A program made the translations under genes and the position numbers. The notes beneath the pieces were generated by a model. The model was not told where the DNA came from and did not search any database. It saw nothing but the letters and a program-made list of their open reading frames with translations. DNA of 64,000 bases from Neelides folsomi (taxonomy: Eukaryota; Arthropoda; Collembola; Neelipleona; Neelidae): the NCBI GenBank assembly GCA_034687125.1, contig JAQGBZ010000004.1, forward strand, positions 124,001-188,000, in the 5' to 3' direction. Each line of letters opens with the position of its first letter. Position 1 is the stretch's first letter. Below are positions 10,104 through 64,000 of the stretch, in pieces.

Positions 10104-13100
10104 ATGAACCCACGGTTGATATTTGTCCTATTTATATATTTAACTATTCAACAATGTTCTGCCAAGAAAGAAAAGGAAACGTTTGGTAAGTTAAAACTTT
10201 CATTTTATAAGAATGTATTTGGTAATTTTAACAAGGTTCTTTAAATTTCTTTCTTTTTATACCCTAACTGTTGTTTTAACTTTTCTAAATTTCATCAAAA
10301 TATTCTAAAACTATTGATTTACGTTTCCCTTAATTTTTCTATATCAGAATGACATATCGATGTGGTAAAGGTCGCTTATACATTTAGACATTGATAATGA
10401 ATTTATGCAGTTTAATTATATAATTCTAATTACAAAACCATTACACAGAATCGACGATTCTCTATCACATATATTTTTTGCATTTGTATTCAATATGAAA
10501 TGAGAAATGAAGTATGAGCACATGTGGGTTTTCTTTTTCGACGTATTGCCTATTAAGACTATTAACGGTTATATTTCAATCAACAATTCCATTCCATATT
10601 CCATATACATATGATACATACATTAATCAATATCCAAAAGCCAAATGCACATTTAATTAGCTTCACTGCTTCAACGTTGAAAGATATATTAGTTTTCGTC
10701 GTCATCGAATAAACCCATGTCTCTTAAACTTTAGAGTCTAAAGGATGCACTTTCTAATAGGATTATTTATAAACCCTACAAGCCCTCTGTATATGAGACA
10801 TCTTTTTAATTTTGCTTAAAAAACTTTAAAAATCTCGACGTGATTCTCAGCTACCAAAAAATCCTGGATAAAACCAATGATCATCATGTAAAGTTATAAT
10901 TTGTCCCTCGGGAAGTGCAACCGGGTAAATGAATATTAACTGGTAAGCTCGGGGGTTGGAATGAGTGAGAGAGGAAGGAAGCCATACATCATGAAGTCAA
11001 TTTATTGATGTTGAGTCTTTCAAAAGAGCTGAACATACAAAAAGGAGTAGATCAGAGTCAGGATGAGCAGACGCTACTTATTATACAACTTAAACGGAGA
11101 AGATGACGAGGAGCAAGTGGATCCTTCATTATATTGGCCATTTGCCCATCGGAAGTCTTAAGCACTTCCTATCCGTCACCAGAACCCCGACGGAAGGAGT
11201 CGTGAATGAGAACATTCCGAATGATCTTCAGATCCTTCTTTTAGACCTGTTGTATGGATTCTTCATTCGAATCCCAATGTTTATTATGATAAGAAAAACA
11301 GATGAACTCCCATTTCCTCATATGTGTACTTTTTCTGCTCATCTTCACAATATCTTAATACAAATATATATTTGGTCTCGTCTTCATACAAATCGTATTT
11401 TTGGTCTCATCTTCATACAAATATATTGGTCTCATAACCAGACCTCAAAATTTTAGTTGGAACTGGATATGAATTTTAAGATTGAAATTTCCGTAAACAC
11501 CAAAACCATTTAAGACTGAAAAGAAAGAGACAGAAAGAAGAAGCAGATGAGTTTGGCGTAATAACTAAACCATTTATTGTAGTCTTTGTAGTAGTTTTTA
11601 AAACAAGAAGAAATGTATACCTAAAGGTCTTCTTAAATGTCTTCTCATTTCCTCTCGGGTGGATGTGGATATTAATAGGCTCAAACAAGGGAATTGAAAG
11701 CCTTATCTCTCTCCCATGTGCTACATTTCTTGAGGCCATCGGTGGGGCTGAAGTGATGCGGAGAAAAGGAGCGGTTGGATATTAAGACGGCTTTTCTTAA
11801 ACATCATCAAGAAGGACGGGGCTTCTCTGTAGAGTGATTGATGGGAAAGATAAGAACTCAATTGAGCGTCTTTAAAGGTTTTTAAATAGGGATTAAATTG
11901 ATATTGAGGTCTAAGAATCCAAGATGGATAAAAGAAGGGCAGTTAAGGATGGGGGAGGATTTGGATTTAATATTGGTGAAAAAGGTTCCTTTTGTGAAAT
12001 GTAAATTGCTTTAGGATTCAATTGGATTGATAAGAATCATATCATATGATATGAATACAATTCATAAGACATATGAATACATATGATATATGAGCCGAGT
12101 AAAGGAGATTTGAGAACTTGGAAATCTGATTCGCTTTAAGCCCAGGCCTGGTAGATCATTTTCCTCACACGGGTCTAAGGGGCCTTCTTAATGTGGATTT
12201 TTGGGGAAATTCTATCTTTTACCAGGGACCTGACCCGGCTAAAAGGAGGAGTCTGGTTGGCTAATAGAATTAGATCTTGCTTGAGGCCTTAAACTTTGTC
12301 CCAGATGTGGAATCCCAGATCCCGTCTGGCTAAATTGAGAGAGAAAAAAAGGTTGTTGACTGCATATAGGGCTCCTGCGAGAGTGATGGGTCTCAGGGCT
12401 TGGGGTCGAGACACTTCTTGTTATTGACTTTGGAAAAGTTGCCCCTTTCTCCATCATTTTCCTTCACTTGCTTCTCTCAGTCTTCTCTGACAGACCCTGA
12501 GCTTTGTAATGCAATCTCTCCAATCCCTTAGCATATATCCTAATACTATGATGTTTACCAATAGTTTACTCCTTGTTTCTTACACATCCCTTCGGGTCGT
12601 AGAGTCGTAGGACCCTTGAGCGGGAATTTGGGAATAGTGGGGGAGTATATGGATTCAATATTAAGGGACAAGAAGGATCTCAACGGGAGAGAGTCAAGTG
12701 AGAAAAAAGGTATTATGTACAATATGTACTCTGTATAGTATTTGTATTTATGTATGTAGGATATATAATACATATGTAAAAAGGAGACCCTCATTGGCAT
12801 CCAAGCTTGAATCTTGGCAATTTCGGTTCTCTTTTGCCGTCTTCCAAAACACTTCTCGAACTTCAATGTTCTTTGATGGGTTTTTAGTGAGGTTGAGTTT
12901 ATTAGCTGAGGAAACTGGTTTGGAAGAAGTATTGAATACGGCCACTTGGTTTCTCACTTTACTCCATACGATTAGTTAAAGAATTTAGTGATGTGGTAGG
13001 TGGAAAAGAAGCCGACTTATTGCTTCTCACTCCAACCATCATCTTAGATGTCTTAGAAGAAGAAAGAAGGAAAATGAATGTTGTTGGGATCTCTTCAACC

Positions 13101-16100
13101 TTGTTTTAACATTATTACCTTTTTACCTTTCCACGAGACTCGAGAGAGAGAAGAGAGAGACTTTGGAACTTGGTTAATACTTGGACCAACATGGGTGAAT
13201 TCATGCTAATTCATATGGGGTAGGTTTTGAGAAGTGTAGCTGGAAGCTTTTGCATACCACCTCACATTCCTACAATAATGATTCACAGATTTCATTTTTA
13301 TTAGTTAGAGCCTTCCTATTCACACGTTATTAAGAGAGGAGCCCATTGAATTCCATCGCGTTTTTCATTAGGATCAAACACTCCGTGTTTTTGCTCCTTC
13401 AAACTTGAATCTCGAGTTTATGTAAAGTTTACTCTTAAAGTTATATTTCATTTTGAACAATGCCAACCATTCATGTTCCTTTCCATACCTATGAATCTAT
13501 GAAGTTCGGACCATGTTATATTGTATAGGTTAATGGAAAACTTTTTTCTTCCTTTCTTGGTAGAAATCGAACTGACGGATGAAGTTGAGAAAGAATTGAA
13601 CACAACAGTTGGAGACAATGTGAAACTCATCTGCGGAACACCAGTGGAGATTCCAACATCAGCCCGAACCTCATGGTTCCTCAATGGAGAATTCATGGAC
13701 CCAATTGACTATCCAAACATTATCATAACAAACATGAGGTGAGCAAATGGACTGAAGATTTAAAATGTTGTCAATTGTTTAAATATTATTTTCCTTCTTG
13801 TAGACTGAATATTAAAAGAATCAAATTGAAACAAAAGGGATCAATTACTTGCCAAGTAGTAGCCGATGAAAACAAAGATCATATTATTTTGACAAGATCT
13901 ATCATTGTAAATGTTGATCGTAAGTATGAAAAAAATATCTCGATTGACAATGAAGAGTTTCTGTTTGACGAAGGGGAAATTTATGCTGATGGTGAGGATG
14001 AGATTGAGAATGCAAAGAAAGACAAGGAATTGCAATGTCCGGAAAATGTTAAATTGAAGAATGAGACTTTTCTTTGTTTTGACATCGATGCCAAGAAGAA
14101 ATCAATGACACATTTTTTAATGAAAGCTGCTGGATCTACAATGACACTTTATTGCAATGCCAAAGGTAATTTATCATTTTAACTAATTTATTAAAACTAA
14201 TTTTAATAATGAGGTTAATTAAATGCAGTTAGGAAGTTAATGATAATTATAATTATAGTTTAATTTTTTAATTGTGTAGGAAATCCTAAACCAAAAGTCC
14301 AATGGTTTAAAGAAGGTAAAGCAATAGAGAAAAAAGGCTATCAACATCAAGTAAAGGGCAATGTTCTTGAGATTCTCGATGTTACTCATTCAGATGAAGG
14401 GAATTATCTTTGTTTTGCATCAAATGATCATGCAAGTCTTACATATCCAATCCATGTTGAAATTGTCGGTAAGTGAAATTTTTATCTTTTTGAGCCTTCA
14501 GAATTCGCTTCTTTTTCCCTTCGTGTTATTGGCATGTGGATGTTTTCTTTCGGGTGTCTATTTTTGTTTTATTTGTCTTGTCTCTTGCACATTTCGCAGT
14601 TTCTCCTTTTACTCTTTTTTTTAAATGTTGCGTCTTTACCTTCATTTTACCAATTTCATTTTCCTTTCGAGCTTATTTTCCTCTTGAGGTCTTAAACTTG
14701 TCAATGGCCAAGTGAACTTTATCTTAACTCGCTGCTTTTTTAGTTTATTGGTGAGCCTAAAAAATTAGTACATGCATTCCTGTAGGTTTAACATGCACAA
14801 TAAAATTTGAATATGACTTCTAGTTTTTATGTGTTTTCTCCTTCCATTAAATAGGAATAAGTACATAAACTTTTTTGTACTTACTACTTACATTATTATT
14901 ATGTATGTACATACATAGGTACATTTGGTATAGTTATAGTTATTCATACTGGTGGAGGCTTTGGGGCAAATTTGCTTTTTCTGTATTGACATAGATTGAA
15001 GAAATTGGTGGTGGAAATTCTCTCGGTGTTGGTGTCAACTCTCAGTCAGTCCATGGAGGTGATGGGAATTCACTGAATGAACCAAATCTTCAATTCAAAC
15101 AACATTTTTCTTGCATGAAATTTTCAGTTCGAGAACCAAGATATGTCCAAGTTCATCTTGTCAATCAAACCCTACTCATACAAAGCCGGTTATTAATTGA
15201 ATGTTTAATCGGAGGAGGAGATCATGAATCGTTTCTTGATTTTTATAAGTCTGATTTCAATTTTACTGATGTCAACAACACGAAGGAAATGGCCAAACTC
15301 GTGAAAGTAGAGGTATGTGATATTTCTTAAGTTCAACAAAGGATCTGGAATTATTGAAGATGTCCGCGTTATTTTCATCATATTTTTCATATACCAATAC
15401 TTGAATACTTGTACCAATACCATATTAACTCCAAACAGTGAAATTCATAATGTTCGCTTGTGTGTGTGCTTAATGCAAACAGCATTCATAATTTATAAAC
15501 TCCAAAAGTGTTGTCCAGAAGTTCATTTTATGAACGCATGGCTTTAGGCGAATTTAATCAAAAGCTGTCATGAGTTTTCAACGCTTAAGTTAATTAAGAA
15601 ATTATTAGATATAAAGCATATGGAAAAAGCATTGGGCAAGTTTGATTTGCAATGATTTTCTGACTTTGCTGCTAATTTTTAATTTATGCAGTTTTCCTAA
15701 ATAAGAATATTTTCGGTGTTTTTTAAATGAATTACACGAAAGGGATAATAAAATGTTAATAAATTGAAATTTTAGAAAGATCAAACTCACAACCAATATT
15801 TACATTGAGACCGTCGAACGTAACAGCATTAGTAGGCCAAACAGTTGAGTTAGAAGTGGACATATTGAGCGATCCAGAATATTCTGTCGTATGGCTGAAG
15901 CATTCTCATTTGGATTCTCAGGACGCAATCAGGGTTCAGGTATTTAAACAAGTTTTTTTGCAAAAAGTTGAGATTTTACTGCCGTTTTTATATTTTATGG
16001 TTGTTTGATGCATCGCTACTCAAATTCCTCTCACAAAAGTAATCAAGTAATCATTGACCGCCTGAATTTACTTAACTTTTCAATTCTCCCAACTCCATCA

Positions 16101-18879
16101 TGAATATTTACAATTTTGGCAAATGGCCAACTGTTGAATTAATTTTTACCACTTACTAATAAATAATAATATTTAATATACCTCAACATAATTTATGTTA
16201 AACTATAAATTAACGAATGAAACTAATTAAGGTACCATTAACTTTAAGAAAAAATTATTATTACTTCAGACCAAAAAATTCCATTGCGTTGAAAAAACTG
16301 TTGAATTAATCCAATTAAATTAGTTTTAATTAACTGACATGTAATTAGACTAATTTTAATTAGCCCTCAAATTCATTTTACAAATTCATTGATTTTCGTC
16401 TTATGAATATTATTTCTTTGAAAATAGTCGAGGACGAGTAATCGAGATTTGGACGCTGCTTTTAACATTTTGGTTCTTGATAATGTAACAGCGAGCGACG
16501 AGGGTTGGTATACCTGTATAGCAGGAAATGCTGTGGGAAGAGTTGCAACAAACGCTTATATCAAAGTTGTCGAAGGTTTGAATGAAATCTCTTTAAAATT
16601 TAAAGAATGTTCATTAACGATGTTCGTGGATTTAAAGGAATTTCCTTAATATGAATCTTCTTCCCACCCTTTAGAAATTCCAATGGAAGTGACAGAGAAG
16701 AAAAAACTACGAGATCCCAATTTATTCATTTACTTGATGATTGGTGGATTGTCTTTTATCTGTTTCCTCATTATTTCCATTGCTTTATGGAAAAAGAAGT
16801 CAGAGTGAGTTTTTTGAATTCTTCGGATCTTATTTCCTATACTTATTTTACAGTTTTAGCAGATTTCGCAAAATTTCGCATTATGCAAATGCATGGTTTG
16901 TTTATTAATAGTTCAAGATGGAGACGACATTACGAAGAAAAGAAGTTGGCAATCGTGAGAACAAAACAAGTTGTTATCGAACGCCGCCCAGCAATTGACA
17001 ATGACGAAGGAGCAATTGTAATTCAAACTCCCTTTGACTTTGGCATTTGAAATCAAATATTTTTTTTCAATTCTTTCCAGCTCATACCTGAAGTGAATAT
17101 TAAGAGTGTGGAGTGCTTTGGGAAACCTGGTCAAGAATATGAACTCCCTGTAGACTTGACTTGGGAGTTTCCAAGAGTGAAACTTGAGCTTGGAAAATAT
17201 TTGGGCGAAGGAGCTTTTGGTGAAGTGAGAATGGGCGTGGCGAATGGAATCCTCTTTGAAGGCGTTGAAACCACAATTGCAGTGAAAACACTTAAAAGTA
17301 TGTCTTAATCTTAAATTGATGATTTAATTAAAATTTAATTCATTTTGATATAATTTTCTTTTAATCTTGGTAATTAATCTTGTTTTAATTAATCTTATTT
17401 AATTTTCTTAATCTTAATTTTTATAGAGACTCATTCTGATGCCGAGTTAATTGATTTGATTTCCGAAATGGAAACGATGAAGGAATTAGGGAAAAACGTA
17501 AATATCATCAATCTTCTTGGATGTTGCACTCAAGGCGGTGAGCTCCTCGTATTAATGGAATATGCGGAACATGGGAATTTGCGAGATTACTTGAGAGACA
17601 AGCGGAATGAATTCATGTACGAAAGACCCCGAGTTCCTAACTTTGCCCTCGGCCTAGTTGACCAAAGACGAGAAGAGGAGTACAATGAAGCTGATGATGT
17701 TTTAACCTTCTGTGACCTGATGTCATTCGCATACCAAGTGGCTAGAGGAATGGATTATTTAGTACAGAGGAAGGTAAGAAGGAATATTTTACCACTACAC
17801 AATATCTACTTATCTACACAATATCATATATAATAAGATACATAATAATATATTATTTACATATGAGTGGATTCAGTGGATGGATGACTAATTTTCCCAT
17901 TTATTTCCAGTATGTCCACCGAGACTTGGCAGCTCGGAATGTCCTCGTGACGAGTAACAAAGTTGTGAAAATTGCCGACTTTGGAATGACTCGAAGTACC
18001 TTTACGAATGATTACTATCGAAAGAAAAGCGATGGTCGAGTTCCTGTGAAATGGATGGCTCCTGAAACTCTGTTCCATAGGATTTACACAACCCAATCTG
18101 ATGTGTAAGTTAAAATGACTCGTTTATTATTTAATAGGTTATGAAGGCAGTTATGGAGCATACAACTACATATGGTTAAATATATGGTTAAGAAATAAAC
18201 ATTTGGGATTGATTTATAGCTGGTCTTATGGAATACTCCTATGGGAAATTGTAACTCTGGGGGGAACTCCATACCCTTCGATGCCAGATGCTAATAAGCT
18301 CCTAGACTTTTTAAAACGAGGGAAAAGGATGGAACAACCAGCTAATTGTCCAACAGAACTGTAAGTTACCATAAACTATTTAAACTGAAATTAACCTTAA
18401 ATCCAAATTAAACTAAAACATCTTTGCTGATCATGACCCGGTTTTTCGAGTTGTTAAAAAAATAATTATTTCAGCTACCTTATTATGCGAGACTGTTGGA
18501 TGGATGCTCCATACTCAAGGCCTACCTTTACTGATTTGGTTGAAGACATTGGAAGGATTCTTTACATAGCTTCGGGGAAAGTGAGTTGAAACTTTTTAGT
18601 ATTCAAAGACTGCATTTGTTAGATAACAAAACAAGCTGGCATAATACTTGAATATAATAGACCATTTTTCTAATACAAACTTGATCACTAAATATTCTAA
18701 TGAATGTCTCATTAAGAGAGCGGTCCATAATTGAAGTTTTTTTAAATGATTAGGATTACATGGATCTTGAAGGAGTTCGGCCTTTAGAAGATGTTATTAC
18801 TCCTCCAAGCAGTCCAGAAAATTCACTTGGACGCGTAATGTTTGATCCTGATTTTGTGCGATCTTTCTCAGAACCTTGA
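10104..18879 (+). CDS. FGFR: Fibroblast growth factor receptor tyrosine kinase
   Basis: Type I membrane receptor for FGFs. Exons 10104-10185, 13564-13738, 13804-14165, 14280-14468, 15776-15939, 16428-16575, 16675-16804, 16912-17017, 17081-17297, 17427-17773, 17911-18104, 18220-18360, 18475-18580 and 18754-18879 join in frame (828 aa). A signal peptide exon ([20 protein letters not shown]) is followed by Ig1, an acid box ([15 protein letters not shown]) diagnostic of FGFRs, Ig2, Ig3 (VVWLKH ... YTCIAGN) and one TM helix (LFIYLMIGG to IISIALW). The kinase has [25 protein letters not shown], paired activation-loop tyrosines NDYYRKK, WMAPE, and a kinase insert. The tail DYMDL resembles the vertebrate YLDL PLC-gamma site. 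Ig3 lacks the usual first cysteine (ELEVDILSD). Intron 1 is 3.4 kb. An extra coding-like exon lies in intron 4. Confidence 0.95.
10186..13563 (+). other. Long first intron of the FGFR gene
   Basis: This 3.4-kb intron separates the signal-peptide exon from Ig1; both border it in phase 1. It has more GC-rich, purine-rich stretches (about 11.0-13.2 kb) than its surroundings and a small tandem repeat (11371-11438). A 33-codon open frame starts at 11063. I see no exon required by the receptor model. First introns of developmental receptor genes often hold enhancers; nothing here proves that. Confidence 0.6.
11371..11438. repeat. Short tandem repeat, about 29-bp unit
   Basis: Two and a half copies of a unit TTGGTCTCATCTTCATACAA plus a variable AT tail sit in FGFR intron 1. 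A partial, more diverged copy may precede it from about 11340. Confidence 0.6.
15128..15330 (+). other. Candidate alternative exon of FGFR (truncated secreted form)
   Basis: Inside FGFR intron 4 a coding-like frame follows a good acceptor (pyrimidine-rich run ending TTTTCAG at 15127). Spliced to exon 4 (phase 1) it reads on in frame, [20 protein letters not shown]..., for 67 codons to TAA at 15328. A strong donor, GAG/GTATGT, sits at 15313, but joining it to exon 5 at 15776 shifts the frame and stops after about ten codons. Either use ends the protein after Ig2, before the membrane helix. AATAAA at about 15747 could serve as a poly(A) site. The frame is also open upstream to 14995. I do not recognise the peptide. 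It could be an alternative last exon, a poison exon, or chance. Confidence 0.4.
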
Positions 18880-19865
18880 AGTTCCCCTTTGACTAAATAT
18901 TTATATTACATATGATTTACTTTTTACATTTTATTTATTTACTTAATTTGTGTTCTTACTGCCAAATTTTCAAAGACTACTAAAAGTACTGTACTTTTGA
19001 TAATTATCCTATTTGAAATACTTTTGTTCATAGATGTACAACAATGTTATTTGTACATTTAATTAACTATAAGTTTTTTGTAAACTATAGACTGGAGGAT
19101 CCTCGATATTTATTATTATAAACAAATGTGTTTCTAGTTTATATTTTAAAACTTTGACTTCTCACTATTAAAATATTTACTTAATCATTAACCTCACAAA
19201 GAGGTACAATTAAATTTTAATGAGATTTATAAGTCGTATTACTCAATTTTTATAAGTCATGTAAAGTCCATTAGATATTTAGAAATATGTCACAACTACT
19301 ATCAATAGTTTTAATTTTCATAAAAAAGTATTTATATACATTAATTGTAGATTAAAACTATAACTTTTTGAATATGTTTCTCGAATTAAATCTATAAATT
19401 AATAATGAATTAAATGATCAATTTATCTACAAAATCGTTATTTATTGATGTCCATAACATGAAAATCAATTCAGAATAAAGTCCAAAAAATGTTTATTTT
19501 GTCTAATGTCTGTTAACAATCTGATATGGCGTCACGAACTTGTTCCGAGAATTCTGAAATGGATCATTTATAACCTCTCGCGATTCACACGTCTAATGGG
19601 CCAAATTTTTGGCTCTTACATAGGTGAAACTTCTTGGTGTATTTTTGGATCATCGTTGGATGGATGGGAGGTCGACCTCTTCCTATTTTCAGCTTTAACC
19701 CAACTGACATTCTCTGTCTTCCTCAATATCTTACAAACTTCTCTTTAACTCACCGAACTTCGAAATATTGAATCGCCGATTATTAAAGAATCTACTGAAT
19801 ATTTAAGAATTTACTGAATATTAAATTTAGCGATTATTACAGAATTTACCGATTATTAATTTTAA
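18880..19865. other. Spacer between the FGFR and esterase-like genes
   Basis: It holds the FGFR 3' UTR and the promoter of the next gene. A direct repeat of GAATTTACTGAATATTAAA-like units lies at 19790-19858, just upstream of the esterase start codon. An 80-codon frame at 19506-19748 has no recognisable domain and I do not call it. Confidence 0.6.
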
Positions 19866-22326
19866 ATGGATAATGTAAATTTCCGAAGTATTAATTGTTG
19901 CTCTTGTCCATTTTACATGATTTTCTTAACCATCTTTATAATCTTACTCTCATTGAGTCAATTATTTGAGAGTTCAGTGATCGAGGAAGTTGGGAGTTTT
20001 GGACTCATTCCTAGTACATTGCGAAATCCTAAAAAGTTTGTTCGAGTTGATGGAGGAGAACTTGGAATATTTATTGGAACAGAAGAGGAGTTAACAGAAG
20101 GGTCTTCTGCTTATTATTCATTCCTTGGAATTCCGTATGGAAAAGCTCGTCGTTGGGAGGTATGTGTAAAATTTACAGTGAAAATACAATCAGAACTGTT
20201 GTATTAAATTCATTTATTCCTATCAACTCCTCTAAGAGAATTTCTTTAAGATTTCTTTAAGAGAATATCTTTAAGAGAATTCTTTAATGACCTTTGAGAT
20301 TAACTAATAGCATGTTTGAAATTCAGGATCCAAAACCCGTTGAGATTCGTACACGTGGAGTGGATTGTACAAGATATAGACCAATTTGTCCTCACTGGAG
20401 TCATAAAGAAAAAAAAGGACTTGGACACATTGACTGTCTATTTCTCAATGTCTTCACGCCCCATTTACCTACAAAGAACACAGGGAAATATTTGAACCTT
20501 ACGGAGACTGCCAGAAAAAGATTTTTAAAACCAGTCATTGTATATTTTGACTCGAGATACTCAGCAGAATCTACTGAACACAATTACAAGCCTGAAGGGT
20601 TAATGGGAAATTACGACACCCTTTTTATTAACATCAATTATCGAACGGGTGTTCATGGGTTTCTTTCAAATAACAATAGGTCATTGGCTGGTAATTATGG
20701 GCTTTTGGATCAGCTCGCGTCTCTACGATGGATCAAGAAAAATATAGGAAGATTTGGAGGAAATCCTTTAAAAGTTACGATAATGGGGAATGTAAAATAC
20801 ATTCTTGTGTCGCCATTATCAAAAGGGCTTTTTCACAGAGCTGTCATTCTCTCTGAATTTCATGGGAAATTATTATCAAATTTTCATTTTAAATTAAATG
20901 ATCAGTTTACGAGTGCAGAATTACTTGGAAAGAAACTTGGATGTTCGTTTGAATCTGAATCAACACTTCTTGATTGTCTTAAAATTACTCCGATGGATAA
21001 AATTCTTGAGGCTGAACATTTGATCTTTAAGATGGATTCTATTGAAAGGATTAGTCCTACGATTGATGAAGGAATTCGGCCCTTTCCAGTTTTGCCTTTA
21101 CATCCGATAGATTTAATTGAAAATGGGAATTTCACAAAAGTTCCAATTATGTTTGGGACTTTTGTTGATAATGAAAATTCTTTGGCTCGGACATTTTTTA
21201 GAGATGTGATTCGAATGGAAAATGATCTGCCTTTTGATTTTCTTAATAATACGGAATCTAAGTTGGATTTGTATGAAAGATTGTTTGAGTTTCTTAAAGA
21301 AGTACTTGAAGCTTCATCATTAGAATTAAATGAAAAGGATTTTAAGAATATTTGGGAATATTATTTTGAAAATGACTTTAAAGTTGACCAAGATAATTCG
21401 ACAATTTTTAATAGAATGTCAAAGGTAAAATATCGTACTTATAACTTATGACTCATACGCAATACTGCAGAATTAAATTAATAGTTAAATTCTTAAATTA
21501 ATAAAATTAAAAGATGATTAACGTCCTTTTAATTTTATATAGATGTTTGACGATTTTCAAATATACTTTCCAAATTGGAGATTGATTCAGAAATTAGCAA
21601 AGAACTTGAAAATTAAACCATTTTATATTTACATGTTAAATTATAAGGATGAACAAAAGAGTTATAGTGGTTCAAGTACAAGAGAAAATTCATTCCGAGA
21701 AATTGATATATTGAGACTTAGGAGAAGAAATAAAGAAGACATTGAAAGTTTAACACAGGAAAATCTTTGGAAAATCTTTACTGCTTTTTCCGAATTTGGG
21801 TATGTTTATCTGCAATATTACATTTGCTTAAATATTTAAAAATTCTCACTTTATTAAAGTGAGACACATGTTCTTATGGCTTATTGCACTTCACAAAAAA
21901 CATATACTATGTTTTGTGCTATAAAACCTGTGTCTCACTTTAATTGCGTTATCCATAAATCTGTAGTTGATAGCTTTATTTGGACTTAAATTAACCATTT
22001 AAATTAAGGATTCCCAAAAGCGCTATTTCGAGTTTTGGTAATTGGACCACTTGGAAAAGGGTTGATTTCAAAGAAAATTATTTTCCCTTCTATGATTTAA
22101 ACCAACAAGGAAAAAACACATTTGTGAATTATAGAAAAAACGTAAGTTATTTGACTTAAAAATACAAACAACTGTTAACTTTACTTTTTACTTTCAGGAA
22201 GCGTTATTCTGGGAGGGTATTTATGATTCAATAGTGAACGGAGGAAATTTATTCCTTGGATCTCTCAAGCTCAATATTTTATGCATTTATTTAAGCTTTT
22301 ATAATATCACTTTATACTTAAGATAA
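19866..22326 (+). CDS. Catalytically inactive carboxylesterase-like membrane protein (neuroligin/esterase fold)
   Basis: Exons 19866-20159, 20327-21424, 21543-21799, 22009-22141 and 22198-22326 join in frame (636 aa). A hydrophobic N-terminal segment (FYMIFLTIFIILLSLSQLF) is a signal peptide or anchor. Type-B carboxylesterase landmarks follow: YYSFLGIPYGKARR, HIDCLFLNVFTP, NINYRTGVHGF, GNYGLLDQLASLRWIKKNIG, FGGNP.KVTIMG, SPLSKGLFHRAV, and the distal WTTWKRV and FWEGIYDS. The nucleophile elbow GESAG is missing: TIMG runs into NVKYILVSPLS with several residues deleted. In the catalytic-His region (usually G.SH.D) one reads YSGSSTRENS, with no His. It therefore cannot hydrolyse esters; a ligand-binding or adhesion role, as in neuroligins, gliotactin or glutactin, is inferred. 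The last 25 residues are hydrophobic and may be a GPI signal or anchor. Confidence 0.85.
20229..20290. repeat. Tandem repeat of TCTTTAAGAGAA
   Basis: Four imperfect copies of a roughly 12-18 bp unit (TCTTTAAGAGAAT and variants) lie in intron 1 of the esterase-like gene, about 40 bp before the exon 2 acceptor. Confidence 0.65.
21854..21943. mobile_element. 90-bp foldback MITE in an intron
   Basis: The left arm TTAAAGTGAGACACATGTTC and the inverse of the right arm (TTAAAGTGAGACACAGGTTT) are nearly identical, and looser pairing continues inward. It sits in intron 3 of the esterase-like gene. The target-site duplication cannot be told apart from the AT-rich ends. Confidence 0.6.
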
Positions 22327-48700: not shown

Positions 48701-51700
48701 AAATTGTATGCTTTATAATCTTCATACTTAAGAGAGATGAGCAGATATCCAATAATGCATTATAATTATCCATCCATGGTTGACTATATGACCACTTTTA
48801 AATCGTTCAGGTATGAATGAATTCTGAATATTAATACGTAGGTTAAGCCAAAAGGCTCATTCATCTTCTTTAAAGTCGAGAACTTATTAGAATTTTTATT
48901 CACTGCATCTCTCATTATTTTTAACTATATTCTCTATTATTATCTTCTCTTTAAGAATTTTAAGAAGGTACATAGGTACATACCTGTTTGAGCTTTGAGT
49001 ATTTATATAGGAAGTGTAAGTACAAGCGTGAATTGTGCGTATTAGAAAATAAATATGAATTTATTTGAAATATCCATACGTGTCCTTTTATGTACTTTAA
49101 TATTATAATAATAATGGTAAGAGAAAGTACTCACATAACAATGATAATCGGGTTCTTATATCTTAAAGATATGTAAGATCTCAATGGTTGATTAAAACTA
49201 CTGACGTTTTCTCTGACTAATAATATCCATATTAGAGGCATACATTTAATTATGTTGTACATCAAATCTAAACTTCTCCCAAGATTTCGCCCAATGTAAG
49301 CTTCATGAAATTCATATGAAATTCATAAAATGTACATACGACATATTGGTATCAGTATCAGTGCATATACAAATAGGTACATGTACATGTATGAGTAAAA
49401 TGCCTTAAATGGTATTTCATAGCATAATCATTTCAATACAAAGTCAATCAAACTTTATACAATGCAGGAAATCATACGTTTTATATCCGTGAGCTATTAC
49501 AACCATATACCTATTATATCTGTATTTTTTGCATATGATTCTTGTGATATAATGTAAATACGACTCTTACTACAGTACTGTATTTACAGATTCTTATTTA
49601 GTCTTAACTTAGTAGTATATTTTATTAACTTACAGATAGCTTTGTCCAAATGAATAAAATCCGTGTCATTCTTATTCCATGTAAATAGTTAAAGAATGAC
49701 AAGTGATTTGAATGTGGCAGATGAAGCGAAATGGTTTCTCCTTCTCGGCATCTCCTCTCAATCACATTTACTTTTCATGATCCTTTTATTACTGTATGGC
49801 TCGCGAAACAAATAATGTTGGACATGGGATGCGCCTCTCGATTAAAAGTAGCTTACAGGTACACTTTATTAGTGTAGTGAAATATGAATAAATTATGATA
49901 ACAAAGAAATGATTCATGTCAAATTGAAAAGAAATGAAGTCTTCATTCATTTAAATTGTACATATTAAAATACGGTGACAATTGGCTGGTGTAAGAAATC
50001 ATCAATATGAGTAATATGACGATATCAGTATGAGTTCCTTAATGTAAGTATCTACCTAATTAGTATTTAGTGTCTTTTGTACATTAATATTATTATACTT
50101 GATTAGGTATTACATAGAATATCTTGTATAATAATAAGATTATTGCAATCTCATTAAAGTATTAATTATCTATAAATAATCTTGGTATACATATTATGCA
50201 TACTATATACAGATTCAGTATACCGATAAGCCAATTAAGTCTGAGTCTAATATGTAGAAAGATGTATGATCATTATGGTTTTTTAAAAAGTGATTAGATA
50301 TAACAAGCAATAATAATAAGGAATCCCTCTGGCTGAATCGAAAGGACGAAGATGAGTTAAAAGAATTATTTATAGGACGTAGATTATTTTCGATGTATAA
50401 ATCAAGCTACTTTCTTTTCTCAGGTGCCAGTCTCATCCTCATCCTCGAACAAGACATTAATCTCTCTCATAATCTTCAGTGAAGATTGTCCACTAATAGG
50501 TTAGAACCACAACATGGGGCCAAATATCAGATTACATTTATTTACCACCGTCTTCGTTTCTTTCTCCATTTTGTGCCAAGTTAAAAGTCAATATTATGGA
50601 CAAGGATATCGACAACCGCCGCCTCCACAACATTACAAAAATGCCCAACCGCCCCAAACAATCTACGGAGCTCCTGCCCAAAAACCATTAAATATCCAAT
50701 CCCCGCCGCCTTTACCGCCAGTAAGACAACCGCCAGTTTCTTATCTTCCAATACCGCCAGAACAAAATCAATATGCTTCGCCATCAAACCCATGGCAAAA
50801 CCAACAACCTCCAGCTACAACAACAACAACAACAACAACAACAACTCCAAGACCAACTACGACAGTAAGAGCTTTACCGCCAGTTGTCGAAACCGAAGAA
50901 CATATTAGTTCATCCGCTATAGGAATGATGTCGATGGATTCAATAAAGAAAATTGACGTGCTTTGTGGGTTGAAAAAAATGTCAGTTTTCTTGAAGTTTG
51001 ACAAACCATTCGAAGGAACAATTTACGCTAAGGACAATTACAATGATCCAAGTTGCCAATATGTGTCTGGAGAATCTCCATCGACTGAAATTAATTTCGA
51101 TATGGTCACTGGAGAATGCGGAGTTTCTTATGTTGACCAAGGTAAATAAATAAGTCAATTAATTAATTAATTATAATAAAAATATTTTAATTTCCTCCAA
51201 CAATTAAAAGTATTTTTTTATAGAAAGATTAAAATATTTTGAAATTATCTAAAATATCGCAAATTGTCAAAATAATAAAATAAATAATTTTTTTACTAAT
51301 TTAATAGTAAATGTAAGTAAATGTTGTTAAATTTTAAGGATTAACATCTGGAGGTTCATCATATATTGAAGGAGTATTTGCTGTCAATAACGAACAAGGA
51401 ATTGTTGAAGCATGGGACACGGAAAAAACCATCAGATGTATTTGGAAAGGGAATTTAGAAGAAAGTGTAATTTCGCCCGTCGCAGTTCTTCCACTTGACT
51501 CAAATTCGCCACCTTTATTATTTAGTGGTGACATTGCAATGGTCACAATGGAAATCCGCCAAGGGCACACTTTATCCTCCCCGAATGTCCGAGGTCCGGT
51601 CAGAATTGGTCAACCGCTCTCAGCCGTTGTAACGGTTCATGGCGACAACGAGTTTGACATTTTTGTTAAAGATTGCTATGCCACAGATTCATCCAAGCTC

Positions 51701-54700
51701 GTTCGGTATCTTTTAACAGATACTCAAGGATGTGCGAAAAAATTGAAAGTTATGGGCGGATGGAAAAAAGAGAAAGTTGATGGGAAAAGTGTGGCCATTG
51801 CCTTAATAAGTGCATTTAGATTCCCAGACGTCATGGAACTTTACTTTGAATGCACTGTCGACCTTTGTAAAGGGAAATGTCCAGAATGTTCACAATTCAT
51901 GGAACTCAAAGATGCCCATGCTCAACATTCCCACGACCACGATGATGACCCCGAATCTCTCATTGACCCAAGAGCCAAAAATGCGTTTTCAAGATCAAAG
52001 AGATTTGTTCAATTTCTCAACCAAACACATATTGCTAATATCGAAGGAGAAGAAAACAGTGAAGAAAACAGTGCAGAAAGGGTTTTGAAAAATGGGGAAC
52101 AAAATGCGAGAAGTCAATTGATCCGAATTCTCGATTCTGATGAAGATTACGCTCAATTTGAAGGAAGAAGAGAAAATGAAAGATTTAAGGAATTTTCATT
52201 GTATTCAGGAGAAAACTTTTTCATGTTTTTATTACTTAATTTCATTTCACTTCTTTGTGTCTTAATCCTGGTCATTGTTGCTGTCTCTGCTGCTTATTGT
52301 TTAGGATGGAAAAAATCTTTGAATTTCGAATCTAAAATATAAATCTCTCGCTATGAGCCATATCCTGTTTTTTATGAATTTTATTTAACCTTAATTATAT
52401 TTTATATCGCTATTTCAACTTTAACTCGTGATTTTTATTATATTTTTTATAATCGATAATATACGAGCGTGACTTTTTTCATTCATAAACATTTTATGGG
52501 TCTGGAAATTAAGTTACGTTTAAGGAATTGAGGTCTACGGTACATTTACCCTTCGTATAAAAACTCAAATAGGTTGGTACAAATCAATCTGAATTGAATT
52601 AAGAGAATGATTTCTCTTATTACAATTAATAGTGTATGAAAATGAATGCTCAATAATAAGAACAATTAAACAATGCAAAATTTTAATACCAATTAAAAAC
52701 ATTATGAATCTACGCATACCTTTCTGTTCTTATATTAATTAAGTATTTCTTTAACTCGTATTATGAAATATGCTTAGCCATTTGTATTATCTTCAATCAC
52801 TCTATAATATTATGTACTTACTATTATTTTTGTATTTTTGTATTTTTGCAATTTTTAATGTTTTTTAAAAGAAAAAAAATTACAATATTTTACTGTGATG
52901 TGTAAATTTAATTTTCAATTATGCACCCATTTCATTAAAATAATAATGTAAAAAATATTATCTTATTTGATAAGATAGTTTAGTGTATTTCGAATTAGCA
53001 GTTTACTTAAAATTCCTCAGGACTGGTTGCACTAACGTAATGCGTATTTACATAAATGCTGATTAGAGGCAAGTAAATGAAAGTAAATAGTAAAAGCATG
53101 TAATAAAGAATGAATATCAAGTTTGAAAGGCATCTATTTTACATTTTATTGATTGATTGAGATGTTTTATCGTTACATACCTGCAAATTGCGCTCTGGCT
53201 ATAGGCCGGTCCTTCAGTGATCGAGAGAGCTTGTCCGACCTGAGTTTGGGTCAATCCTAATGAGAGTCTTCGAAGCTTGAAGGCTTTCGCGAACTCTTTG
53301 ATCTCGTCCAAATTGATACCATCCACCATTTGATCTGAGTCATCTGATTATTCACACGTTCATACATTAATTAGTTGGTTTTAATTACTACGCCTGGAGC
53401 CAACAACCACGTGTTCCTCTTTACTTCTCTGCTTTCCCTAATCAGACTTCTCTTTTAATCCTCAACACATCAATACCTATTGTACCATACATGGACCCTC
53501 AATAAATACAAACTTTATTCATTTCAAAATCTACAATATATAGAGATATACTCTATACCATATAATTAATACACTTCCTATTAAATTCATGTTATACATT
53601 ATATTCTTTCCATATACCATAATCTGTATTATTGAGTTATCAGTATTTATAAAATCCAATTTCTCGTCCTAAACATTGAAATTGCCATCAAAGGAATTTA
53701 ATACTTAATTAGTGGCAAAATTTATATTTTATCAGACTCCTTAATGAATAATGAATAAAAGAAAGAATTGGCATTTTCATCTCTTTGTGCTAAATATCTA
53801 CTAATTACCAAATCTGATATAATTGATATGTATAAAAAAGGCTCGTGAAAGTGAAAGATTGTATGAATAAGGCATTTCATGCAATTGAACGTACTTAAAC
53901 CTGACTGTGATTGTTTATTATTGAAAAGTATGGGAGACACCTTCTAAACTGCCTACAGGTGAAGAAGAGAAATGATTGATGGATAAAAAATTGATGTGTA
54001 AGTACCATTATCAGAGAACCTGTCTTCATCTTCATCATGGAGGCTGCTTCCACTTCCACATGGGCTCATCCTTGGACACATTGCGGATATGCTGAGGCCT
54101 CCATTGGAATTAATAGACCCATGGGAGGGATTGTGATGGGAAGTTGTGTGATGGGAATTCCCACTATGACTTTCCCTCCGTCCGTTCATCCCCCGAACTC
54201 CGTTGAGACAAGATGAGATTGTTTTTTCCATGGGATGCCCTAATTTCTCATGGATCTGTTTAATTATAAAATCATAGACATTTATTAACTAATTAATTAA
54301 CTGTTTTGTTAATTTTAATTATTGGTTAATTTACTCTAAATTAATTATTTAATTTTACCATCGGTATATGTGCCCCCATGTGTTGACTGACTAGGTGTGG
54401 AGCGAGGTTCAAAAGCGGGGCCGGAAGTCCTCCTACCGGTCCAGGAAAATCCGGGCTTTGGTTAGAAGGCGGGACGGTGGGAGCAACCGGCGGGGAACAC
54501 GGATTCGCCCCCGCCGAATTTCCGTTTAGGCTCGAGAGGAGATTTGAAGCTCCTTTGACAGAGGTTTGGGTGGAGCCATTAAATAGGCTTTGAGGACTTC
54601 CAGGTTGAGTGAGCGGAATGGTGAGAATCGTCTGAGTCATGATTCCTAAAAGTCATAATTCTCATAATTATGGAAAATTGAGGAGGTTGGTAATAAATTG

Positions 54701-60716: not shown

Positions 60717-63700
60717 ACATGTCAGCATAATTTGATGAATATTCATTCATAAACATAAAAGTTATCTTCGATTAAAAATACTCAAAACTTAGCAGCCCAC
60801 CCTATATAGTACGCAATTAATTATTCACTCATTAGTAGAAAACAATTGAGTAGGTGAAATTTGTCGGTATGTGAAAGAAGTTGATTTAATTGCTCTTAGA
60901 TCCTCAATTAGAGTGAGAGGGTTCTGGTGAGTAAACGAAGGGTGAATGGAAGTCCCAAGGCATCGGAATCTCATTTGATTTCCGCCTAGATGGTAAAAAG
61001 AAGGTCTTCACAGTCAAAGTATAAGAAAGGGATTGGGTCCATCGTGTGTTTGGCCTACAGCTCCTCTTTTCCAACTCTCCACTTCTGGGTTTGGTGAAAA
61101 GGGCGCATTAATATTTCAAGATGGGTCTCATTTGCATATAAATGAAGTGGCACCCCCCTAATCACACTCACTCGGGCTCCCGACACACAGCCCCGACCTT
61201 CCTACCCTTCTTTTGCTCCCAGCTCCTGATAATGAATAAGTTTCGCCTTAATTCCCGGACACCAATTTTTCCAATTCTGATCCCAGCTAAGTAACCTTCC
61301 CACGTCTTGGAAAAGGGCGAGCGTGAAGTGGAGGAAAAAAGGAATGGAAATCAAATATATCTCTCGATTCTCTCCTTTACCTTTCCTCCTCGCCCGATTT
61401 CATTTGAGGAAACTTTTCTTTTACGCTCATTATGTCCAACTGAATGGTCTGTAACTCTTTCTTCCCTCCCCGCTCCGCGAAGCTCCGGACCAAATGAGTG
61501 AGTGAATTGAATTAAGAGAAATTTGCATTTTTCTAAAACCTCGCCTCCTCTTCATTTTATTATTGGAGCTTTTAATAGAATTTTAAATAATTAAACGTAC
61601 TTTTCTTCTTCTCTTCAGAACATGCTAATTTGGACTGAGGGCTGCACAGGGACTTTGCCTTCACTCAGTGGACTAAATTAAAAAGAGCTTTCATTCCCCT
61701 TAAAAAAACTTTTCAAAAGGCCCGGCGTGTGCGGAGAAGAATGGGAATTGATAGATAAAACTAGGTTGGTAAATAATAAAACCTCTCTAAAGGTCTCCCC
61801 TGTTCCTCTCTCCCAAAGACCAACTTCCAGGACCGTGAAATATATATTTATGTATGTATGAGAGCTGGGTGAGGGAAAACGGCCTGACACCCAATTCAAA
61901 ATACATAATGCAAAGGGTTTTCACACCGAATTCATCATTATTCCGGCCAACACTCTTGACAAACAATTGTCAGCGATTGCCTTCCAGCGTCCTTCTATCC
62001 ATCTCTATATATTTCTATGTATCTCTATGTATTTTCCCTATGCCCTCGATCTCGATAAATAAATTTCCCTCGATTATCCTTCCATTTTACACCAAATTCA
62101 ATATACCTATTTGTAGTAGCGTCATAAATACTTACACTCTGTTACCCTTACATTAGCATATTGGACGTGGGCAGAGGAGATGAGTAAAAGTCGCCACTTG
62201 ATGATGTCAGGATTTCATTACTTTTCCCAGTCCCATTACCGTTAGGAATTGCTGGACACGAGGCGTGTAATGGAGTGAAGGCAGATTGGTCAAACAACGT
62301 CCGTCCATTTCCATTCCCAATTCGCCATCAAGGGAGGGAGTAAATGATAATGCAATGAAAATGAATAAAACTCGACACAATACTGAATGGGAAAGTGGGC
62401 TTATCGGAGAAGCTTATAAAATATCCTCATATAAATATACATATAGAATACATAAGTACAGATTTGAACTCTGTTTACTCTTCCGGAAGGACAATGGATG
62501 TAATTTAGGTTGAGCATAAGATCGGAGTTGGATGGACCAATGGTAAGTTAATACTTTTCAAAAAGGGGAATTGGATCTTATTTAAAAGTATGGCTAAAAT
62601 ATATACCATATATGTATATTATATACAATATGACTAGCTAATGTAGGTATAGCTCAGTGGACAAAAGTGACATTACGGTCATTGACAAATACTGTTATTG
62701 GGTATATGGACAGTATAAATTTATATAAAGCAAATTAATAGTAAAAGTTGTAAATCGGATGGATTCTATCTCTGTACAAATCGTCCGTCCCTACAGTGAA
62801 GGAACAAACAAGATTGGAATTGGAAATGGGGAGATGAAAGACATGCAAAAGGAGACAGAGGGGAGATGAATTGTCCGCGAGCAAATTTTACCAATGACGA
62901 ATTTCTAATTCTCCCTTGTCCGAACATATGAGCTTTTACCTTCTATACTTTATATGTGAATGTACTATATTTTATATGTACCATAATATATGTATTACAT
63001 ACATGTCCTTTCCATTATTGTAAAGCGGATTGTATGTTATATAATGGAAGAGACGTCTAACCTCATATGGGAGTGGAAGTGTAAAAACAATAGCAGTTGT
63101 CAGCCCTTGTCATCTTCCTTTCACTCTTCGCACCCCATCATTACTTTATTTTTACTTACTACAAAGGGGAATTTACGCATAAATTATACCTTTCGTTTCC
63201 CACAGACTCATTAAAAATCTCATTTTAATTAATGAATCCAATTCTCGCTTCAATTACGTTGCAATTATCTTCATGAGTAGGCCTGGAATGGACTTTATTA
63301 GATTGTTCAAACTAACGGGTAGAACTCTATTTAATACATTAATGGATAAATACTAACTAAATATCCATTCAAGACTCACAATACTGGATAAGCATATTTT
63401 GTATTATGCAAATATATTACATAAATTAATTATTACGTTGAAAATTGAAAAGTAATAGAGATTGGAAACAATAATTTGGAATATACCTGTATTATATCAG
63501 TATTAAATAAACCTGTATTTACATAAATCATACGTAAAATATATTAAACTTAATAAATAAAAAATGTTGAGGTTTGGCCCACTTTGGATTTTTGGATGAT
63601 TCAAATGAAGAAAAATTCTCATTTAAAAAACTTTTGCTCGAAATTTACTTTATGTTGAATTTTAATTAAGTTTTTTTTCCATAAATTTGTAGTTTGAAAA

Positions 63701-64000
63701 GAGAGGTGAATTTGTGATAAAAATTGAAAGAACCGGCCGTATAACGTGTATAGGATTAATAAACCCGGGAGAATTTCCACGATGAAAATGATGGCATTAG
63801 AATCAACTCTCATCCATATGTAGACAAGAAATGAGATGAAGAGGAGAGGATTTGGAATTTGAATTGAGTTAAACACTGAGGCTCCCTTTTTCCCTCATCT
63901 CGATCCGAAAAATGCAAATCACTCATGAAGAACCTCTTTATTATGCAAATACGCTATTTTTAATTTTCGCTACTACTCCCTTAAAAAAGGTTCCCGATTA

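Follow-up and report, generated by a model that had tools for sequence, protein, structure and literature searches.

A putative second version of the FGFR IIIa exon in Neelides folsomi, predicted to be spliced in place of the recognised one

Known splice variants of FGFR ectodomains and the Neelides gene

Soluble FGFR variants occur, and two isoforms of the Tribolium (beetle) FGFR were reportedly described by Sharma et al. in 2015. In vertebrate FGFR1-3, exons IIIb and IIIc are mutually exclusive halves of the third Ig domain (Ig3), and a full-length receptor is made either way. The single FGFR of C. elegans, egl-15, has an alternative ectodomain exon (5A or 5B), located between Ig1 and the acid box (PMC11519726). 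In insects a mutually exclusive splicing event is found at FGFR exon IIIa, and Burguera et al. 2017 (PMC5703972) present this event as insect-specific.

The FGFR gene of Neelides has a candidate exon (5a) in intron 4, upstream of the recognised IIIa exon (5b). Like the insect event (PMC5703972), the predicted 5a/5b pair concerns the first half of Ig3, has its alternatives upstream of a single IIIb/IIIc-type exon and would give two isoforms from one FGFR gene. Since insects are reported to do the same, 5a/5b is probably a new example of a splicing type already described and not a new type. With the vertebrate pair it would share mutually exclusive Ig3 halves and a full-length product either way, but in vertebrates the second Ig3 half varies, whereas in Neelides the alternatives would concern the first half, with one exon for the second. 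The resemblance to egl-15, an alternative ectodomain exon in an FGFR gene, does not extend to the position, which is Ig3 in Neelides. A parallel with the soluble variants lies in the stop that the 5a frame meets when its donor is unused; there is no sign that this end is preferred.

The features of the gene, given as positions in the window (the whole stretch of DNA analysed, 64 kb), are:

10104..18879, + strand: FGFR gene, 14 exons per isoform (GT-AG borders, unbroken translation)
14280..14468, + strand: exon 4 (Ig2), ending in phase 1, the upstream splice partner common to 5a and 5b (from frame and GT-AG borders)
15128..15312, + strand: exon 5a, putative alternative IIIa exon (first half of Ig3), phase 1 to 0, 185 nt
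15776..15939, + strand: exon 5b, recognised IIIa exon, phase 1 to 0, 164 nt, aligning with FGFR4 Ig3
16428..16575, + strand: exon 6, second half of Ig3, the downstream splice partner common to 5a and 5b

Spliced translation yielded 828 residues for isoform A (exon 5b) and 835 residues for isoform B (exon 5a); the gene is thus in frame without the candidate segment, as an earlier sequence-only reading of this DNA had stated. The domain order is signal peptide, Ig1, acid region, Ig2, Ig3, membrane helix and kinase. Pfam detected the tyrosine kinase at 494-784 of the 835-residue form (314 bits) and three Ig_3 stretches, with Ig matches for the Ig2 of exon 4 at residues 194-266; the signal peptide, acid region and membrane helix were recognised by eye. 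All features of FGFR membership (Ig domains, acid region, membrane helix and tyrosine kinase) are therefore present, and the Ig3 of isoform A can be aligned over its full length with that of FGFR4.

The genome (75.1 Mb, 840 contigs) was searched with Ig2-Ig3. Among 59 candidates scored (E up to 0.01) there were 13 matches, three from the FGFR gene and ten weaker ones of Ig type (best E 2e-6, 30% identity); for exon 5a itself the genome gave one match, with no second copy among the candidates scored. A tyrosine-kinase search of the same 75.1 Mb gave 103 matches, many of them short and covering the same stretch (e.g. C682, C206, C563, C532), which possibly reflect an expanded kinase family and may include a second FGFR-type kinase gene. 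Six homeobox matches lie on contig C20, among them Ubx, which reads on into an Ala/Gln-rich tail, and a likely abd-A homeobox lies on a separate contig, C93 (names assigned by eye). In the first 9990 of the 15157 bases of the mitochondrial contig, inspected by eye, ND2-COI-COII-ATP6-COIII-ND3 lie on one strand and ND1 on the opposite one. The Ubx tail and this gene order are both compatible with a pancrustacean, perhaps a hexapod. Elsewhere in the window, carboxylesterase/cholinesterase-like ORFs lie directly downstream of FGFR (19866-21451, + strand), and long ORFs at 50505-52342 (+ strand) resemble a zona-pellucida-domain membrane protein, both by eye.

Splice sites, coding potential and reading frame of exon 5a

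Intron 4 (14469-15775) contains the open stretch noted in the sequence-only reading (14995-15330, + strand, 111 codons plus stop). The acceptor AG with its last base at 15127, the donor GT at 15313 and a phase compatible with that of exon 4 were confirmed as well. Both splice sites had been called strong. This holds for the donor (8.9 bits; the gene's 13 others range from 3.3 to 9.0), whereas the acceptor, at 1.9 bits, is of middling to low strength (13 others, -4.1 to 6.8). Exon 5b scores lower than 5a at both sites (donor 3.3, acceptor -1.4). All these scores are rough, because the scoring was trained on sites of the same FGFR gene (13 of each, with 5b itself left out when scored). Gene-like codon use, also claimed before, was found for 15128-15312 (+0.07 bits per codon in frame, the two alternative frames scoring -0.48 and -0.77); the part of the open stretch upstream of the acceptor scored -0.07, and the coding part is 15128-15312 only. 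As a yardstick, the 14 real FGFR exons, each left out in turn, ranged from -0.25 to +0.38. A codon score as good as that of 5a was reached by 24% of a set of 326 open windows that also contains real genes, and by 4.4% of 320 overlapping open windows from the FGFR introns.

When the 185-nt exon was shuffled with its dinucleotides kept, the needed frame was open in 99 of 5000 cases; among 5000 sequences drawn from the shuffled flanking intron it was open in 74. Pseudo-exons of phase 1 to 0 whose splice scores exceed those of 5a or differ from them by no more than 0.5 bit were counted in 128 kb (the 64-kb window, both strands), and five were found, including 5a itself. Of the remaining four, two overlap one another, and one, at 19978-20159 in the esterase-like ORF downstream, is probably a true exon. 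Six other loci (tyrosine-kinase regions of the genome, 119,710 strand-bases) held four comparable pseudo-exons, two of which resemble true receptor-kinase exons by eye. With 5a and the probable true exons removed, stray loci of 5a quality number about four in 248 kb of strand sequence (~1 per 60 kb), so that about 0.02 are expected by chance in a 1.3 kb intron. From these properties, 15128-15312 is very probably a real exon.

The phases of 5a and 5b are equal (1 in, 0 out). With 5b replaced by 5a, translation continues unbroken to the normal stop, and the 835-residue product keeps the membrane helix and kinase. Inclusion of both exons leads to a stop after 341 codons and skipping of both to a stop after 273 codons; the reading frame thus permits just 5a or 5b. 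This pattern (equal phases, a full-length frame with each exon, and no full receptor with both or neither) marks a mutually exclusive pair and not a secreted receptor. It had been proposed that the membrane helix and kinase would be lost whether the segment served as last exon or as cassette, a claim that fails because a third outcome, 5a replacing 5b, was overlooked. The frame shift foreseen for cassette use with 5b kept does occur, and it is normal for a mutually exclusive pair of such phase. Since 5b encodes the IIIa half of Ig3 and shares its phases with 5a, exon 5a stands at the position of a second IIIa exon.

A vertebrate-type pair of second-half Ig3 exons was sought in 15313-16674. Seven open candidates of phase 0 to 1 were obtained; each of the three high-scoring ones overlaps exon 6, and the four upstream of it score 46.9-47.6 versus 107.3. 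No second exon-6-type exon was thus found upstream of exon 6 in this interval, and exon 6 is the single counterpart of vertebrate IIIb/IIIc. Overall, we assign a probability of about 0.8 to exon 5a being another IIIa exon of this FGFR gene that replaces 5b on splicing, as judged from the DNA alone.

The peptide encoded by exon 5a and competing explanations

The tail peptide had been described as resembling nothing recognisable, yet within its Ig3 context it lines up in register with the N-terminal half of an Ig domain. Exon 5a was joined to the end of exon 4 on one side and to exon 6 on the other, and the construct was compared with 3000 shuffles and with 198 open stretches of 62 codons from other parts of the window, beyond the gene. 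Using a ten-sequence profile (FGFR4, FGFR2, the gene's own isoform A and seven I-set domains), the Ig3 of isoform B scored 58.9 bits, and the match extended across 5a as well as exon 6 (residues 15-117). The shuffles averaged 50.6 (sd 1.3), and 58.9 was reached by 2 of the 3000 and by none of the 198 open stretches. Because exon 6 is part of every construct and isoform A part of two profiles, just the gain over the shuffles counts. With the seven I-set domains alone the score was 34.3 bits, equalled by 4/3000 shuffles and 1/198 open stretches; with the three FGFR-type sequences 5a was equalled by 41/3000 and 1/198; and a profile of the two vertebrate FGFRs gave no signal for 5a (918/3000 and 42/198 as good). 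A wider null comprised 1158 phase-compatible open AG..GT candidates on both strands, 1033 of them outside FGFR exons (about 121 clusters). One cluster scored above 5a, a non-Ig stretch at 63649-63893 (- strand), and the next reached 57.0. A shorter version of 5a (end at 15270, GT at 15271) scored 60.1, slightly above the full exon.

Other comparisons gave less. Pfam Ig_3 matched the construct at residues 19-104 with 25.9 bits, below the cut-off of 30 and 2.9 bits above the construct without the exon (23.0 bits). The 5a peptide alone matched no Pfam family, and among PDB chains (E up to 10) no FGFR, the one match being irrelevant (E 1.2). Global alignment of 5a gave z 1.3 with 5b (567/5000 shuffles and 8/198 window ORFs as good), z 2.0 with FGFR4 IIIa (167/5000 and 4/198) and z 2.0 with FGFR2 IIIa (180/5000 and 6/198); when the three scores were summed, 101/5000 shuffles and 1/198 ORFs did as well. 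The control, 5b against FGFR4, gave z 9.6. As few shuffles reach the in-context score of 5a but one cluster lies higher, the Ig fit is significant, not overwhelming, and on balance 5a appears to encode the first half of an Ig domain.

The cysteines of the two forms differ. Exon 5a has the strand-B cysteine of Ig3, which 5b is without, and its spacing from Asn-x-Thr to Cys is 13 residues, the same as in FGFR4; 5b has Val there. Ig3 accordingly has the canonical cysteine pair with 5a and one cysteine with 5b, and the ectodomain (from residue 21) has 8 cysteines with 5a (even) and 7 with 5b (odd). The N-glycosylation sequons also differ (three in 5a versus one in 5b).

Several other explanations of the segment were weighed. 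The secreted receptor, formerly the first choice, was dropped as such because the 5a-for-5b swap preserves the frame. It is quite unlikely that 5a serves as an alternative last exon, giving a soluble two-Ig FGF trap, or as a poison exon causing decay when included with 5b. An in-frame stop at 15328-15330 would end the product if the donor were unused, AATAAA occurs at 15747 and 15758, and double inclusion stops the frame early (after 341 codons). A last exon, however, would need neither a strong donor nor an exact phase match to exon 6, and for both uses the fit of the peptide to half an Ig domain in context argues against them; moreover, AATAAA is present six times on the + strand of 10104-19400, so that last-exon use is not singled out by it.

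A duplicated IIIa exon that has gone out of use and is decaying would account for the weak pairwise similarity to 5b and FGFR IIIa, and for the canonical Ig Trp, which is absent from 5a by eye. Such a relic is very unlikely, given a frame that is intact (open in 99/5000 exon shuffles), two intact splice sites scoring above those of 5b, gene-like codon use in the right frame alone and a Cys at the FGFR4 spacing. The most improbable reading is that the AT-rich intron happens to contain an open stretch flanked by splice sites that arose by chance: similar pseudo-exons do occur elsewhere (the about four loci per 248 kb of strand sequence given above), but the expectation of about 0.02 for this intron has to be multiplied by the chance of the Ig fit, 2/3000 by shuffles or about 1/121 by unrelated clusters.

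Candidate regulation and the two predicted receptors

With 5a as a second IIIa exon, one gene would produce two membrane receptors that have Ig1, Ig2, the second Ig3 half, the membrane helix and the kinase in common. They would differ in the Ig2-Ig3 linker and the first Ig3 half, which belong to the surface that binds FGF. Both the linker and IIIa contact FGF and set its fit, and altered ligand choice is a likely outcome of the swap. We infer that both exons are used. In the simplest model exon 5a, which has the stronger sites, would be the default, and a Fox-type protein at its acceptor would block it and lead to the use of 5b; the choice would most likely be controlled by cell type, altering which FGF is answered. 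The genome has one FGF match above the family cut-off and a stretch resembling a Fox RRM (88% over 33 residues, with a single TAG inside it). The putative binding site is:

15112..15117, + strand: UGCAUG, Fox-1/Rbfox motif (PMC2880598), 10 nt before exon 5a

The motif was sought post hoc, only after the Fox literature was known. It is one of 10 + strand copies in 64 kb, and the 25 copies on both strands compare with 24.1 expected, i.e. it is not enriched; a further copy (16890-16895) lies 16 nt before exon 8. According to one report (PMC2880598), the single-exon choice in FGFR2 needs unbalanced 3' splice sites and the exons are switched by Fox2 and ESRP1, and in worm egl-15 exon 5B is repressed by Fox-1/ASD-1 with SUP-12. 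Fox-family regulation of the 5A/5B pair is thus reported; UGCAUG near 5a is a motif match.

Base pairing was considered as well, with one candidate duplex:

14515..14535, + strand: candidate pairing arm in intron 4, 86% complementary over 21 nt to part of 5a
15269..15289, + strand: candidate pairing arm in exon 5a, partner of 14515-14535

A pairing as good was found in 4 of 400 shuffles, against 82 to 384 of 400 for the other six of the seven pairings tried; three yardstick pairings gave 31, 223 and 337 of 400. By a coarser whole-duplex energy, 1 of 60 shuffles equalled the intron 4/5a pair. A regulatory role of this pairing is possible, the signal being weak and faring poorly after seven tests. 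The RNA fold of 14950-15330 is less stable than that of shuffles (z +2.07; 99/100 fold at least as well), and Rfam gave no family at its gathering score in the 64-kb window.

The cysteine pattern suggests a further, more specific idea. A mutant human FGFR2 with an unpaired cysteine shows ligand-free activity through an intermolecular disulfide (PMC10267317). In view of this precedent and the odd cysteine count with 5b, a splice choice between receptor types is conceivable. The exon choice would then act as a disulfide switch, with 5a giving a ligand-dependent receptor, 5b a disulfide-prone or pre-dimerised one, and a Fox-family protein at UGCAUG blocking 5a. We regard this as unlikely; the cysteine difference would tie splicing to receptor activation in a testable way.

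If 5a is indeed a second IIIa exon, a gene model with 5b only omits one of the animal's two FGF receptor forms. The Neelides gene would also add to the view (PMC5703972) that alternative splicing has repeatedly targeted the Ig3 region of animal FGFRs.
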